Assembly (NCBI GenBank): GCA_016193065.1
Contig: JACPSX010000068.1
Coordinates: forward strand, 1-6,259
Direction of reading: 5' to 3'
Length of the DNA: 6,259 nt
Source: Candidatus Tectimicrobiota bacterium
GTDB lineage: Bacteria > JACPSX01
Positions 198 to 6,259 of this stretch are shown here, piece by piece. The translations under genes were made by a program, and so were the position numbers. Position 1 is the first letter of the stretch, and each line of letters starts with the position of its first letter. The notes beneath the pieces were generated by a model, which saw nothing but the letters and a program-made list of their open reading frames with translations, did not search any database and was not told where the DNA came from.

Positions 198-1271
198 GAT
201 CGTCTGGATCCAGCCCCCGCCCAGGATCTCGTCCCCCTCATAGAAGACCGCGGCCTGGCCGGGCGTGATGGCACGCTGTGGAGTGTGGAAGGAGACCGTC
301 ACCTCGTCGGATCCGGGGCCGGAGCGCAGGATGGCGGGCGATCCCCCGTGACGGTGACGGATCTGAACGCTTGCTTCCCGCTCTCCGTCCAGCTCCGGGA
401 TCAGCATCCATCGCACCTGATCCACGACGCAGACGCTGTGCAGGAGTTCTTCGTTTTTCCCAACCACGAGCCGGTTTCGGTTCGAGTCAATTTCCAGGAC
501 ATATAGAGGATCCCGAGAGCTCACCTGCAATCCCCGGCGCTGGCCGACCGTGTAGTAGGGATAGCCCCGGTGCCTGCCCAGCACCTTCCCATCAGAATCC
601 ACAATGTCCCCGGCACGGTCTGCCGCTTCGGGGGCGCGCTGGCGCACGAACTCCGCATAATCGTCGTCCGGTATGAAACAGATCTCCTGACTCTCGGGCT
701 TGTTCGCCACCGGCAGTCGGTGTCTTGCAGCGGCAGCCCGCACTTCCTCCTTCGTAAATTCCCCAATCGGGAAAAGTGTGTGTGCCAACTGTTCCTGGGA
801 AAGGTTGAAGAGAAAATAGCTCTGGTCCTTGGCCCGGTCCCGTCCTCGGGCCACCCGCAGGCGATCTCCATCCCCCCCCAGCAGACGGGCGTAGTGCCCC
901 GTGGCGACTTTGTCGGCGCCGAGCATCCGGGCCCGCAACAGGAGCGTGTCGAACTTCACCTTCTGGTTGCACACCACGCAGGGGTTCGGGGTGCGCCCCC
1001 GCAGGTACTCGGCGACGAAGTAGTTCACCACCTCGCTCTCAAAGTGCTCCTCAAAGTTCAGAAGGTAGTGGGGGATGCCGAGATTGTGGGCCACCTGGCG
1101 GGCGTCCGCCAGATCCCGGGGGGAGCAGCACGAGCCGAACGTCCGGTCCGCGTTGTGGTCCCAGGTCTGCATGGAAATGCCGATTACCTCGCACCCCTGC
1201 TCCACCAGCAAGGCCGCGGCCACGGAACTGTCCACCCCGCCGCTCATGGCTACCACAATTCTCTCGCCCAA
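189..1271 (-). CDS. mnmA: tRNA-specific 2-thiouridylase MnmA
   Basis: Cytoplasmic enzyme that uses ATP and a persulfide sulfur (in known systems relayed from a cysteine desulfurase) to make 2-thiouridine at wobble position 34 of Lys, Glu and Gln tRNAs. The 360 residues match the usual family length. Visible motifs are the PP-loop SGGVDSS (10-16), CCSPRDLADAR (48-58), TPNPCVVCNQKVKF (94-107) with the first catalytic cysteine at 98, TGHYAR (124-129), KDQSYFL (148-154), ESQEICFIPDDDY (193-205) with the second catalytic cysteine at 198, and GQRRGL (243-248). The C-terminal beta-barrel ends with the typical GQAAVFYEGDEILGGGWI. The start is TTG: it has a GGGAG site 6 bases upstream, an in-frame TAG lies a few codons further up, and the next ATG would cut away the strand leading into the PP-loop. 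No cysteine desulfurase gene is adjacent. Identification is secure. Confidence 0.97.
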   Translation of the reverse strand: MGERIVVAMSGGVDSSVAAALLVEQGCEVIGISMQTWDHNADRTFGSCCSPRDLADARQVAHNLGIPHYLLNFEEHFESEVVNYFVAEYLRGRTPNPCVVCNQKVKFDTLLLRARMLGADKVATGHYARLLGGDGDRLRVARGRDRAKDQSYFLFNLSQEQLAHTLFPIGEFTKEEVRAAAARHRLPVANKPESQEICFIPDDDYAEFVRQRAPEAADRAGDIVDSDGKVLGRHRGYPYYTVGQRRGLQVSSRDPLYVLEIDSNRNRLVVGKNEELLHSVCVVDQVRWMLIPELDGEREASVQIRHRHGGSPAILRSGPGSDEVTVSFHTPQRAITPGQAAVFYEGDEILGGGWIQTILR

Positions 1272-1277
1272 GGGTAG

Positions 1278-1282
1278 CTCCC
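1278..1282 (-). promoter_or_regulatory. Ribosome binding site deciding the TTG start of mnmA
   Basis: On the minus strand GGGAG, within AGGAAAGGGAG, sits 6 bases before TTG at 1271-1269. A TAG in the same frame overlaps the start of this purine stretch, so no longer protein is possible. I see no convincing sigma-70 promoter for mnmA further upstream. Confidence 0.75.
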
Positions 1283-1345
1283 TTTCCTAAAAAATTGCCT
1301 TGTGCACCCCCACCCTTCCCCCCCCCATCGGAGACTGTGTCATAA

Positions 1346-1382
1346 GTCCGTTCATGGTGCGACAAGCTCACCACGAACGGAC
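1346..1382. repeat. Long intergenic palindrome (REP-like)
   Basis: Left arm GTCCGTTCATGGTG (1346-1359) and right arm CACCACGAACGGAC (1369-1382) are complementary at 13 of 14 positions, around the 9-base loop CGACAAGCT. From memory, palindromes with this core (GACAAGCTCA flanked by GTTC.../...GAACGG arms) recur in intergenic DNA of many environmental bacteria; when mis-translated they give peptides such as VRQAHHER on one strand and VVSLSxHER on the other, and both frames are present here. It lies between divergent promoters, so it is unlikely to be a terminator for either flanking gene. I read it as a dispersed palindromic repeat; copy number in this genome is unknown. Confidence 0.7.
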
Positions 1383-1421
1383 GACGACACACGGAAATCC
1401 AACCACTTACCCCCCGGGTAC

Positions 1422-1523
1422 CCTCTGGGTGCGGGAGGGATGGGTGAGGGTGTTTTCGGCCCCGCCATGCGCTCCTCTTGCCCCCCGGGGCTTAAGCAGG
1501 ACTTTTTTTGACCCTCCCAGAGG
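1422..1523. repeat. Imperfect inverted repeat around the terminator-like hairpin
   Basis: CCTCTGGG followed by TGCGGG and AGGG (1422-1438) is matched by CCCTCCCAGAGG (1512-1523): 12 complementary bases with a 6-base bulge on the left side. GGTACC also occurs outside both arms (1417-1422 and 1542-1547), partly overlapping the left arm. The arms enclose about 73 bases that contain the T7 hairpin. This could be the boundary of a small repeat element or a structured RNA; sequence alone does not decide. Confidence 0.35.
1473..1509 (+). terminator. Possible intrinsic terminator with no gene before it
   Basis: The plus strand can fold TCCT/AGGA (1473-1476 with 1498-1501), CTT/AAG (1477-1479 with 1494-1496) and GCCC/GGGC (1480-1483 with 1488-1491) with small bulges, followed by C and seven T (1503-1509). 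This has the form of a rho-independent terminator for rightward transcription. No rightward gene lies upstream of it in the intergenic region, so it would end an unannotated transcript or insulate the operon promoter from readthrough. Confidence 0.4.
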
Positions 1524-1646
1524 ACAGCGGGCACCAAAAACGGTACCATCTCCCCGCCGGGCCCGCAACTCATTTCCGGGCGGCAAAGTGCCGATAAGTG
1601 TTAACAGAATCAGGAACCTGGGGAACCGGCCGGGTAGGAAGCGGCG

Positions 1647-1675
1647 TTGACATTCCCCCCCCTCACCCCTATAAT
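1647..1675 (+). promoter_or_regulatory. Consensus sigma-70 promoter of the sugar operon
   Basis: TTGACA (1647-1652) and TATAAT (1670-1675) are exact consensus boxes with an optimal 17-base spacer. Transcription would start near 1682, giving a leader of only about 18 bases before the ATG at 1700. The spacer contains a C8 run (1655-1662). A perfect match of this kind suggests strong, largely housekeeping expression unless a repressor acts here; no clear operator is visible. Confidence 0.87.
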
Positions 1676-1688
1676 TCGTTCCCCAAAC

Positions 1689-1693
1689 GGGAG
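1689..1693 (+). promoter_or_regulatory. Ribosome binding site deciding the start of the first operon gene
   Basis: GGGAG lies 6 bases before ATG 1700. An upstream in-frame TTG at 1598 would place the exact promoter inside the coding sequence and add a proline-rich, non-conserved leader, so 1700 is chosen. Confidence 0.8.
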
Positions 1694-1699
1694 ACCGAA

Positions 1700-3019
1700 A
1701 TGAATGTTGGGAGTCAGCTCGTCATTACCATGGCCGACGGGACCGTCAAGCAGACGAATCCCCTGACCGGCCACGAGGCCTGGTTTGTTCCGGGCCGCTC
1801 CACGCGCCCCATGATCAATGAAATCCCCAAGACCGCCAAGCCGCTGGAACGTCACAGCCCGGAGGATTACTGCAACTTTTGCGAGGCCAACTATCTTCAG
1901 ACCCCTCCGGAAAAAGAACGGCTGGTGGCCGTCAACGGGAGGTACGAGGTTCGCGAGCATGTGCCTCCAGATCAGTTACATTCCGAACGCCCCTTGTGCC
2001 GGCGCATTGGAAACCTCTTCGAGATCGTCACCATCGACTACTGGCAGAAAAACTACAGCTACCGCCTCTCGGAAAAAACAGCCCGCTGGAAAGGGGAGTA
2101 CCTGTCCCGGGAGGACGGCCTCAAGCACGTCATCAGCATGGTGGATTACAAACTGCGCCTGGCCAAGAAGTCCGAGGAAGAAATCGCCAACTCGCCCATC
2201 GGTCAGAAGGTGAAACTGGCGGACGCGTTTTTCGGAGGGGGGCACGATCTGATCGTTTTCGGTCGCCACTACTCTCCCGAGGCCCAGTACGACTCTCAGA
2301 TCTGCTCCTCCGGAGAGATGACCCAGGAAGAGCACTTCCAGTACATTTTGTTTACGACCCGGGAGATTCAAGACATTCTGGACAATAACCGCTACGTCCG
2401 CTACGTGATCACCTTCCAGAACTGGCGCATGGCGGCCGGGGCTTCTTTCGACCACCTGCACAAGCAGCTTGTGGCCCTCGACGAGTGGGGCACCTTCCTC
2501 GATCGTGAGGTCGAACTGGTCGTCAAGAACCCGAACATATACAACGAGCTGGTCGCGAACTTTGCGGGCTACTCGAACCGGGTCATCGCCGAAAACGACC
2601 ATGCCATCCTGTTCGGCGATATCGGCCACCGCTTCCCCACCCTGGCCGTCTATTCCAAGAGCCCCCATGTCAGGCCCATGGAGCACGAGCCCGAGGAGAT
2701 CCGGGGAGTCAGTGATCTGATCCACGCCGCCCACATGGCCATGGGCAGCACGATCCCGTGCAACGAAGAGTGGTACTACGCGCCCCGGGACTGCCCCGTA
2801 AAGATCCCCTGGCACATTCTGATCAAGTGGAGGATCAACACGCCGGCGGGCTTTGAAGGGGGCACGAACATTCACATCAACCCCCTCGACCCGCTCTATC
2901 TCAGGGATCTCATCGTGCCCCGGCTCTACGATTTGAGGGACAAGAAAATCATCGACGGCTTCAAAATCGCCGAGGAGTGTGCCCTGCTCCCGAATTCCCT
3001 GAGGTATAACCAGTCCTGA
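1700..3019 (+). CDS. GalT-like (HIT superfamily) protein, DUF4921-type
   Basis: The 439-residue product is a divergent relative of galactose-1-phosphate uridylyltransferase. The start MADGTVKQTNPLTGHEAWFVPGR (11-33) and the overall form resemble what I recall of the DUF4921 family, whose function is not established. GalT-like features are the CNFC zinc-type pair (58-61); an N-x4-AG segment leading to HLHKQ (252-256), in which His254 aligns with the nucleotidylated histidine of GalT; and WHILIKWRINTPAGFEGGTNIHINP (371-395), parallel to the GalT C-terminal signature. Compared with the next gene it is about 100 residues longer, with an insertion in the middle, and Pro370 replaces the first His of the GalT HWH metal site. 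It is the first gene after the promoter and lies 48 bases before galT. A nucleotidyl transfer or phosphorolysis role on a sugar phosphate is likely; the substrate is unknown. Confidence 0.8.
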   Translation: MNVGSQLVITMADGTVKQTNPLTGHEAWFVPGRSTRPMINEIPKTAKPLERHSPEDYCNFCEANYLQTPPEKERLVAVNGRYEVREHVPPDQLHSERPLCRRIGNLFEIVTIDYWQKNYSYRLSEKTARWKGEYLSREDGLKHVISMVDYKLRLAKKSEEEIANSPIGQKVKLADAFFGGGHDLIVFGRHYSPEAQYDSQICSSGEMTQEEHFQYILFTTREIQDILDNNRYVRYVITFQNWRMAAGASFDHLHKQLVALDEWGTFLDREVELVVKNPNIYNELVANFAGYSNRVIAENDHAILFGDIGHRFPTLAVYSKSPHVRPMEHEPEEIRGVSDLIHAAHMAMGSTIPCNEEWYYAPRDCPVKIPWHILIKWRINTPAGFEGGTNIHINPLDPLYLRDLIVPRLYDLRDKKIIDGFKIAEECALLPNSLRYNQS

Positions 3020-3055
3020 TGGTTCTTGGGGTCAAGAAGGCCGGGTGAGGAGGCT

Positions 3056-3062
3056 GGAGGAG
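3056..3062 (+). promoter_or_regulatory. Ribosome binding site of galT
   Basis: GGAGGAG lies 5 bases before ATG 3068 and fixes that start. The in-frame TTG at 3026 would add 14 non-conserved residues, and the GalT family normally begins close to the xxxRxDPxTxxWVI motif. Confidence 0.8.
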
Positions 3063-3067
3063 ATCGA

Positions 3068-4084
3068 ATGTCCGAGATGCGCAAGGATCCCATTACGAAC
3101 CGCTGGGTCATCGTCCGCACCGAATCCGGCGCCGGCCCCAGCACGATGATGCCCCCTCCGGAAGATCCCGAACCCGCCGTGTGCCCCTTTTGCGAGGGGA
3201 ACGAACACATGACGCCGCCCGAAATCTTCGCCCTGCGGAACATAGGCACTTCCCCCAACGGGAAGGGGTGGCAGGTTCGGGTGGTCGCCAACCGCTTCCC
3301 CGTGCTGGGAATCGAGGGGGGGAAAGAGGGACAAGGGCTTTTCGACAAGATGAACGGCATCGGCGCCCACGCGATGATCATCGAATCCCCGGCCCACGGG
3401 GCCGGCCTGAACACCCACGGGAGGGAGGTCCTCACCCGGATCCTGGAGGTCTATCGACTGCGCATGCTGGATCTCATACGGGATCTGCGCTTCCACTATA
3501 TCCTGGTCTTCCGCAACGAGGGACACGAGGCCGGCGGGCACTTGCGCCACCCGCACTCCCAGATGGTGGCCACTCCAGTCACGCCGCGGGAAGTCAAGTC
3601 CGAGCTGCAAGGGGCCCGCGATTATTTTCTCTACAAAGACCGCTGCATTTTTTGCGACATGATCCGGGCGGAAAAAGAAGACGGACGCCGGGTGGTCTGG
3701 GAAAACCGGGATTATGTCAGCTTCTGCCCCTTTGCGTCCCGTTCCCCCTTTGAGATGTGGATCCTCCCCAAGGAGCATTCCCCCGACTTCTACCGGCTGT
3801 CCAGTGAAGGGCTGGCGGGGATGGCCGAGGTTCTCGACCAGTCGATGAAGAGGCTGGCGGGCGCCCTTAACCGTCCCCAGTACAACATGGTCCTGCACTC
3901 GGGCCCCAACCGCCGGGAGCGCCGCGACTACTGGCAGACAATCGACCATGACTTCCACTGGCACATGGAAATCATCCCCCGGTTCACCCCCTATTCCGGG
4001 TTCGAGTGGGGCACGGGGTTCTTCATCAACCCAACCCCCCCCGAGGAGTCCGCCGCATTCCTGCGTGAGCTGAAGATTCCATGA
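3068..4084 (+). CDS. galT: Galactose-1-phosphate uridylyltransferase
   Basis: Soluble enzyme of the Leloir pathway that exchanges UMP between UDP-glucose and galactose-1-phosphate through a uridylyl-histidine intermediate. The 338 residues fit the bacterial family. The order of motifs is RKDPITNRWVI (5-15), CPFC (39-42), ANRFPVL (74-80), ESPAHG (106-111), the active site GGHLRHPHSQ (156-165) with nucleophile His163, a second CIFC pair (193-196), FEMWILPKEH (228-237), HSGP (277-280), HWHMEIIPR (297-305) and GFEWGTGFFINP (311-322). By analogy with E. coli GalT, Cys39, Cys42, His110 and His161 form the zinc site, and His277, His297 and His299 belong to the second metal site. Its stop overlaps the start of the GH57 gene (ATGA), so the two are probably translationally coupled. 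With no galK or galE in view, a related activity on glucose-1-phosphate (as in ADP-glucose phosphorylases of this family) is possible. Confidence 0.93.
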   Translation: MSEMRKDPITNRWVIVRTESGAGPSTMMPPPEDPEPAVCPFCEGNEHMTPPEIFALRNIGTSPNGKGWQVRVVANRFPVLGIEGGKEGQGLFDKMNGIGAHAMIIESPAHGAGLNTHGREVLTRILEVYRLRMLDLIRDLRFHYILVFRNEGHEAGGHLRHPHSQMVATPVTPREVKSELQGARDYFLYKDRCIFCDMIRAEKEDGRRVVWENRDYVSFCPFASRSPFEMWILPKEHSPDFYRLSSEGLAGMAEVLDQSMKRLAGALNRPQYNMVLHSGPNRRERRDYWQTIDHDFHWHMEIIPRFTPYSGFEWGTGFFINPTPPEESAAFLRELKIP

Positions 4085-5403
4085 GCCCCCTCGCGGTGGC
4101 GTTCGTGTGGCACATGCATCAACCCTACTACACGGACCCCGTCTCCCGGACCGCTTTGCTCCCCTGGGCCCGCCTGCACAGCACCCGCAGCTACTATGAC
4201 ATGGCTTCCCTGCTGGAAGAGTTCGCGGACGTCCGAGTCACCTTCAATCTGGTCCCCTCTCTCCTCCGGCAGATCGAGCAATATTCCCGCCAGGAGATCC
4301 ATGATCCGTTCCGGGACGTGGCCGAGATTCCGGCTTCCGACCTCGAGATCCGGCACAAGATCTTTCTCCTGCGCTTTTTCTTTTACGCCAACCGGGAGAC
4401 CATGGTCGACCCCTACCCGCGCTACCGGGAGCTGCTGAGCCAGCGGGGCCGGCATCATCAGGAGAAGGAAGTGGAAAGCCGGATCCGTGAGTTTTCCGTC
4501 CAGGACTACCGGGACCTGCAGGTCTGGTTTAACCTGACCTGGATGGGTTTTCAGGCCAGAAAAAAGATCCCGGAGCTGAACGACCTTTTCGAGAAGGGCG
4601 CCAGGTTCTCCGAGGAGGACAAACGTCTGGTCCTGGAAGCCCAGGATCGCATCGTTGCCGAAGTGATCCCCCTCTACCGGAAGCTTGCCGACCAGGGCCG
4701 GATCGAACTCACCACGAGTCCCTTCTACCATCCCATCCTCCCCCTGCTCATCGACACCGGAAGCGCCCGCCGGGCCCTGCTCAACCTCCCGCTTCCCGCA
4801 CCTTTTCGATACCCGCAGGACGCGGAGGCCCAGATCCGGCGCGCCGTCCAATTCCACCAGGATCTCTTCGGAAAACCGCCCCGGGGTCTGTGGCCTTCAG
4901 AAGGCTCCGTGTGTCCGGAATTGATCCCCATCCTGACCGAGGCGGGGCTGCAGTGGACGGCCACCGACGAGGAGATCCTCATCCACTCCCTGGGAGCGGG
5001 AAGGTACCGGTCCGAGTCTCTCTACCAGCCCTATCGGGTCAGCCACCAGGGGCGGGAGATCTCTATCATTTTTCGGGATAAAACTCTCTCGAACCTCATC
5101 AGCTTCAGCTACTCCCGGCGGCCTTCCAGAGATGCTGCCGCAGATCTTCGCAATCATCTCCAGGGCATCGAAAGCCGCCTGGGATCCGCGGAGCACCCCC
5201 CCCTGTGCGCCATCATCCTGGACGGCGAGAACCCCTGGGAGTACTACCCGGGAGGCGGGGAAGAATTCCTTCGCCTAGTCTACAGCTCCCTCACCGGCAA
5301 TCTGAGGACCACCACGGTGAGTGCCTACCTCGAGCAATATCCGGCTCAGGAAACTCTCCCCACCCTGTTCACAGGCTCCTGGATCGGGCCCGCCAGGATC
5401 TAG
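4081..5403 (+). CDS. GH57 glycoside hydrolase, N-terminal catalytic part (frame broken)
   Basis: The 440-residue frame is the first part of a large GH57 alpha-glucan-active enzyme (amylase/amylopullulanase-like, retaining mechanism). Visible are WHMHQPYY (10-17, GH57 region 1), TFNLVPSLL (54-62), DLQVWFNLTW (145-154), TSPFYHPILPLL (212-223), GLWPSEGSVCPE (269-280) with Glu274 as candidate nucleophile, TATDEEIL (293-300), IIFRDKTLSNLISF (329-342) and ILDGENPWEYY (379-389) with Asp381 as candidate acid/base. No signal peptide is visible, so it is probably cytoplasmic and acts on stored glucan. The frame runs normally to TGSWI (431-435), then reads five unrelated residues and stops at TAG. In relatives as I recall them, GSWI continues into an IWIG-x-x-E-x-N-x-A-W segment, which is absent; the remainder of the protein continues in another frame. 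Start is ATG overlapping the galT stop. The fragment alone is probably inactive. Confidence 0.85.
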   Translation: MSPLAVAFVWHMHQPYYTDPVSRTALLPWARLHSTRSYYDMASLLEEFADVRVTFNLVPSLLRQIEQYSRQEIHDPFRDVAEIPASDLEIRHKIFLLRFFFYANRETMVDPYPRYRELLSQRGRHHQEKEVESRIREFSVQDYRDLQVWFNLTWMGFQARKKIPELNDLFEKGARFSEEDKRLVLEAQDRIVAEVIPLYRKLADQGRIELTTSPFYHPILPLLIDTGSARRALLNLPLPAPFRYPQDAEAQIRRAVQFHQDLFGKPPRGLWPSEGSVCPELIPILTEAGLQWTATDEEILIHSLGAGRYRSESLYQPYRVSHQGREISIIFRDKTLSNLISFSYSRRPSRDAAADLRNHLQGIESRLGSAEHPPLCAIILDGENPWEYYPGGGEEFLRLVYSSLTGNLRTTTVSAYLEQYPAQETLPTLFTGSWIGPARI

Positions 5404-6179
5404 GCGCTCTCAAGCCTTCCGCAGGGGATGACCAGTCCCAGGAAGCCTGGCAGGAGATCTATAGGGCCGAAGGGAGTGATTGGTTCTGGTGGTTTGGAGA
5501 CGATTTCCAGTCGGAGCAAAAACCCGAGTTTGACCGGATCTTCCGCCTCCACCTGCAAAATGCCTATCGACTGGCCGGCGCCGAGGTCCCCGCCGAGCTC
5601 CTGACCCCCGTCCGGCAGAGGGAAGCCGCAGCCTGGGAGCGCGGTCAGAGCGGTTTCATTTCCCCCGTCATCAGCGGTTCTCTGACGCACTTTTACGAAT
5701 GGCAGGGGGCCGTCCACTTCAATCCAGCCACGGCTTCGGGAACCATGGTCACCGGCGCGCTGGCCATCGACGCCATTTACTACGGCCAGGACCGGGGAAA
5801 TTTCTATCTGCGGTTCGACCCACATCTTCCGTTTGACTCGCAGCACAATCAAGACCTGGAACTGAGCTTGAGGTTCCTAAATCCAGCCGGATACTCTGTG
5901 ACCGTTCCCCTGGACAGTACGGGCCCCAAGAGCTATACCGTGTACCGCAAAAAGGGCGAAGAGAAAAAAGAGCCCTCAGGATCCTTCTCCCTTTGCCACC
6001 TGGGTGAGATCGGCGAGATGGCGATCCCCCTGGATATCCTCCAGGCCCGGATCGGTGAGACGCTGCGTTTCATCATCCAGATACGCCGGGGCTCTGCGCT
6101 GCTGGAAACCTACCCCTTCCAGGGGGTGTTCTCGTTGCTCTTGCAACCCGAGAACGAGAGAATCTGGTGGGGGGTTTAA
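5373..6179 (+). pseudogene. GH57 glycoside hydrolase, C-terminal part in shifted frame
   Basis: This 268-codon frame continues the GH57 protein of 4081-5403 in a different frame and ends at TAA 6177-6179. It begins with LLDRARQDLGAL, where the family resumes after the conserved IWIG...AW segment, and carries the hallmark AWQEIYRAEGSDWFWWFGDD (about 37-56), followed by FDRIFRLHLQNAYRLAG and, after SGSLTHFYEWQGA, a beta-rich C-terminal domain. No ATG, GTG or TTG occurs in this frame near its beginning; the only earlier in-frame start (GTG 5205) lies in antiframe sequence overlapping the N-terminal part, so it is not an independent gene. The frame is otherwise intact, which suggests a recent lesion or a sequence/assembly error. 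Repaired, the whole protein would be roughly 720 residues. Together with 4081-5403 it should be treated as one broken gene. Confidence 0.85.
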
Positions 6180-6259
6180 TGTCAACGGTACACCTCCTCC
6201 TGGCGATCCATTGTCACCAACCCGTCGGCAATTTCCCTGAAGTTTTCGAGAGGGCCTAC
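6179..6259 (+). CDS. GH57 4-alpha-glucanotransferase/alpha-amylase, N-terminus (partial)
   Basis: Only 27 residues are inside the window, but they start with MSTVHLLLAIHCHQPVGNF followed by PEVFERAY, the characteristic opening of the AmyA-type GH57 enzymes (4-alpha-glucanotransferases and alpha-amylases, as in Thermococcus), with HxHQPVGNF as GH57 region 1. These enzymes transfer or hydrolyse alpha-1,4-glucan chains. The ATG overlaps the TAA of the upstream GH57 frame (TAATG), and GGTGGGGGG (6166-6174) ends 4 bases before it, so it is probably the fourth gene of the operon and translationally coupled. It differs in subfamily from the preceding GH57 gene and is not a recent duplicate of it. 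Choice between transferase and hydrolase is not possible from this fragment. Confidence 0.8.
   Translation, partial: MSTVHLLLAIHCHQPVGNFPEVFERAY

Follow-up and report, generated by a model that had tools for sequence, protein, structure and literature searches.

Genes and Motifs at the Locus

The window, which is the whole stretch of DNA analyzed here, corresponds to one entire short contig (C126, 6259 bp). The draft genome to which this contig belongs amounts to 2.90 Mb in 294 contigs, is 86% complete, and was the sole representative of its phylum among the genomes searched. The window carries a GH57 gene divided between two reading frames, with the following features:

4081..5403, + strand, upstream GH57 part of 440 aa, ending at TAG 5401-5403 (open reading frame, Pfam, and homology)
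4891..4908, + strand, WPSEGS, which fits GH57 CSR-3 (alignment with relatives; CSR numbering of PMC6037648)
5215..5244, + strand, ILDGENPWEY, which fits GH57 CSR-4 (alignment with relatives; PMC6037648)
5376..5385, + strand, junction, about 10 nt (CTCCTGGATC) that can close GSWI in one frame and open LLDR in the other
5376..6179, + strand, downstream GH57 part in the other frame, from LLDRAR to WWGV, with stop TAA 6177-6179
5466..5492, + strand, AEGSDWFWW, which fits GH57 CSR-5, retained in the shifted frame
6147..6259, + strand, 3' contig end, overlapping the 5' end of contig C199 and containing the end of the GH57 gene and the start of the next gene

The upstream part matched PF03065 between residues 7 and 425 (4.5e-58) with 197 bits, above the curated cut-off of 21.2 bits, and is therefore a member of this family; the Pfam GH57 match was confined to this first part of the gene. 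Homology of the upstream part to its relatives extended as far as GSWI(G), at 5385-5388, with 49% identity to two of them (L029 and L008). The downstream part matched these relatives in their C-terminal halves, with E values down to 1e-40; in other bacteria, the two parts thus aligned in succession with opposite ends of one uninterrupted open frame.

Two residues invariant in the alignment, E274 (4900-4902) within WPSEGS and D381 (5221-5223) within ILDGENPWEY, are expected from their positions to be the catalytic nucleophile and the proton donor, respectively, so that the CSR-3 glutamic acid and CSR-4 aspartic acid pair characteristic of GH57 would be present. CSR-5 has been described as a stretch of nine residues with two terminal tryptophans in amylopullulanases (PMC6037648); the block that fits it here, AEGSDWFWW, lay beyond TAG 5401 and out of frame with CSR-1 to CSR-4. 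The motifs HMHQP, WPSEG, DGENPWEY, and AEGSDWFWW are shared with GH57 amylopullulanase-like proteins of 700-800 aa, and uncharacterized bacterial relatives of this type displayed up to about 50% identity to the gene of the window; the solved GH57 relatives 9jlq and 8zyi are about 480 aa long. Unlike the amylopullulanase-like proteins, the copy in the window was split over two frames and lacked the segment between GSWI and LLDR.

The next gene downstream, starting at ATG 6179, encodes a 4-alpha-glucanotransferase-like GH57 protein, and two adjacent intact genes upstream (window 1700-4084) encode a DUF4921 protein and a GalT-like uridylyltransferase; the neighboring genes suggest an alpha-glucan cluster. 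A repeat of about 50-100 bases that includes GTCCGTTCATGGTGCGACAAGCTCACCACGAACGGAC lies between genes at 1308-1412 of the window and has copies elsewhere in the draft, on several contigs.

The Segment Missing at the Junction

The upstream frame was open from 4081 to 5385-5388 and reached its stop at 5401, and the second frame was open from 5376 to 6179. A codon-model HMM that is blind to homology placed the frame switch at 5376-5377. In relatives the order of conserved elements was GSWI, 15 residues including F.IWIG..E.N, then AW, one residue (usually D), and [Y/L]L..[T/A]R. Among the 94 relatives having the GSWI block, the spacing from GSW[I/V/L/F] to [AGS]W was exactly 15 residues in 92, and the W.G motif was present in 93. 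The window passed straight from GSWI to LLDRAR, and the segment with IWIG..E.N.AW was absent from it. When both halves were compared by BLASTP with the same relatives, most of the pairs shown gave an inferred loss of 64 nt, which equals 1 modulo 3; the exceptions (61-94) came from alignments beginning further on, past a variable helix. Both flanks of the break were otherwise open and the sequence was undecayed. A simple single-base frameshift was ruled out, given that about 18 residues of conserved spacing are missing.

The ability of the junction to be read in both frames was assessed by a column-wise score on 87 relatives. The upstream reading, GSWI (5374-5385), scored +17.2 bits, and the downstream readings LL and LLDR (5376-5387) scored +6.4 and +6.0 bits, values reached by 0.76 and 0.25% of wrong-frame positions, respectively. 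The residue preceding LL was D or E in 70 of the 87 relatives, whereas the downstream reading of the window gives R. As a codon ending in GG before LL would be unusual, the shared stretch should start at about 5376 rather than at 5374; on these scores it probably comprises about 10 nt (5376-5385), perhaps reaching 5388 (range about 10-13 nt). The 10-mer CTCCTGGATC was not rare, with 24 copies in 1.87 Mb of the genome counting both strands, and one further copy occurred in the window, at 66. No direct repeats were found within 5300-5480, as would be expected if one copy had gone.

These results bear out the initial annotation as regards the frame change at the GSWI/LLD junction, now located by the HMM and by BLASTP of the two halves, the absence of the IWIG..E.N.AW segment, and a lost length of 1 modulo 3. 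The annotation had also described a 12-mer readable in both frames at 5374-5385; the dual reading holds, but its left edge was set too far upstream, the stretch being of about 10 nt from 5376. The lost block had been identified with GH57 region 5, an assignment that has to be abandoned, as CSR-5 in the numbering of PMC6037648 fits the retained AEGSDWFWW. The annotation had further allowed for relatives naturally lacking the IWIG...AW segment, and the occurrence of W.G in all but one of the 94 speaks against this.

Frame Breaks and Gap Sizes in the Draft Genome

Frame breaks were screened with the codon-model HMM, a separate model being trained for each genome. The draft was represented by 0.93 Mb, from 95 contigs or parts of contigs in addition to the window, and the two controls (0.63 Mb together) were a single-contig genome (0.40 Mb) and a MAG of 240 contigs (0.23 Mb). 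The screen gave 22 calls in the draft, some of which are probably false positives, vs. none in the controls, where about 15 would be expected at the rate of the draft; under a stricter penalty the figures were nine and zero. Six of the breaks were checked:

C20 (L133), about 6348, UbiD, 23 nt missing compared with seven of the eight relatives shown
C20 (L133), about 14167, TAXI-type receptor, 19 nt missing compared with a 78% identical neighboring paralogue
C241 (L193), about 10317, Apt, 23 nt missing compared with most relatives
C17 (L130), about 4845, acetolactate synthase, 14 nt missing (three models agree)
C3 (L116), about 2234, DctM, 32 nt missing (Pfam and TIGRFAM agree)
C45 (L178), about 2252, ATP-grasp protein, about 208 nt missing

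The losses in the last three genes are arithmetic from profile coordinates. Several of these other breaks also presented bases readable in both frames. Considered alone, the six checked breaks represent 6.5 per Mb, which would predict about four in the controls; the difference from zero was only moderately significant for the checked breaks and strong for all calls. Similar breaks thus recurred across the draft and were absent from both controls, as expected of an assembly artefact. Further calls concerned ArgB-ArgD, NuoL-NuoM, NrdJ, Card1, HATPase, and a cytochrome.

Some other features of these genes were also observed. Two of the six broken genes lay less than 8 kb apart on one contig. A UbiD-family decarboxylase query found 17 matches in the draft, an unusually high number, and further acetolactate-synthase-like genes were present. 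In the Card1-like CARF nuclease (L114, contig C1, about 984-2576, minus strand), the frame may also be broken near locus position 1435.

Thirteen short runs of N, 4-60 nt in length and assumed here to be scaffold gaps, were present in the screened contigs of the draft, vs. none in the controls. Gap sizes were measured at the three runs located inside recognizable domains, and all three were wrong-sized, again as expected of an assembly artefact: 4 Ns stood for about 36 nt in cytidylate kinase (-32), 56 Ns for about 45 nt in NuoH (+11), and 24 Ns for about 21 nt in a Sulf_transp protein (+3). Gap-size errors of up to about 30 nt imply that, where contigs were joined, a few tens of bases between them had been left unassembled, and most of the apparent deletions in the draft fell in the same size range. 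Scaffolds are known to contain negative gaps (PMC3504050, PMC3158087), and errors of local sequence have been documented where MAG scaffolds are joined, including the insertion of Ns despite overlap and unsupported consensus (PMC7111523).

Contig ends were informative as well. The last 113 bases of the window (6147-6259) matched positions 3-115 of C199 (L173) with 87.6% identity and conserved gene order, and further contig-end overlaps in the draft displayed 93.5 and 98% identity. These imperfect overlaps suggest a draft composed of more than one related strain or species; where such strains share a bin, the assembly would become fragmented and joins at short overlaps would be favored. Exact contig-end overlaps, sought as a clue to the assembler, gave a single clear case (141 nt), insufficient to name it.

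Cause of the Break

We consider it likely that the break in the GH57 gene is an assembly error, a bad join between contigs. About 64 bases of one intact gene would have gone unassembled, and the two contigs flanking them would have been linked through roughly 10 bases that their ends happened to share, where Ns of the correct length should have stood. A gap judged to be near zero or negative, together with a few shared end bases, would produce such a join without Ns; a scaffolding or gap-closing step may have made it, and the gene in the cell itself would be intact. This reading is favored because at least six similar breaks occur in the draft together with mis-sized N gaps and the flanks of the junction are undecayed, and also because, in a draft of 294 contigs with imperfectly overlapping ends, the window constitutes one complete short contig. 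The case resembles the local assembly and scaffold-gap errors described in MAGs (PMC7111523) in the unsupported joins, wrong gaps, incorrect or incomplete protein-coding genes, and fragmented MAG; unlike those cases, the sequence here seems to have been lost at a short overlap. Against an assembly error it may be argued that the other broken genes may themselves not be artefacts, real pseudogenes being conceivable since several of them have paralogues in the genome, and that the screen had two control genomes only, with probable false positives among its 22 calls.

A real deletion of 64 nt between direct repeats of about 10 nt, through replication slippage or end joining, would have left a recent pseudogene encoding a truncated barrel protein of 440 aa. 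When replication slippage or alternative end joining removes the DNA between short direct repeats, one repeat copy is kept and the resulting junction is legible in both frames, and the junction seen here has this form. The frames flanking it are otherwise uninterrupted, and searches of the draft with either half of the gene, or with the segment as it occurs in a relative, found no second intact copy of this GH57 gene. However, a join at a chance overlap leaves an identical trace, and the recurrence of breaks across the draft, together with mis-sized gaps and with neither seen in the controls, points instead to the assembly. The relatives found reach at most 51% amino acid identity, which is too distant to show the repeat pair of an intact ancestor: no close DNA relative in which to compare both repeat sites was present among the best 80 matches in genome contigs, nor was one found in plasmids. 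On balance we regard a real deletion as unlikely. The initial annotation had put repeat-mediated deletion forward as the leading cause and had named an assembly artefact as an option; in the light of the many similar breaks and mis-sized gaps in the draft, it is the latter that is favored. If all the breaks were real, this deep-branching lineage would be losing gene pieces of 14-208 nt between repeats of about 10 nt at an unusually high rate, which seems very unlikely.

The contig ends overlapping at 87.6-98% identity, with the mixed related populations that they suggest, would agree with a chimera, formed either by joining contigs from two related strains or during amplification. There was, however, no sign that the two sides of the junction derive from different strains, and such a chimera, which we hold to be extremely improbable, would in any case be a sub-case of assembly artefact. 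Lastly, the segment could be naturally absent, with a single sequencing error or a programmed frameshift linking the two frames. The frame change itself, and nothing more, agrees with this; the near-constant spacing and the W.G motif in the relatives do not, and neither a single-base change nor recoding would remove about 18 residues. The probability that we attach to it is negligible.

The probable assembly error at this locus is a caution and not a discovery: the frame breaks, missing motifs, and "pseudogenes" of this draft should not be taken as biology before they have been checked against the reads. A screen that combines codon-model breaks, the length lost at each break, the size of N gaps as compared with profile coordinates, and control genomes can tell an odd gene from an assembly-wide property.
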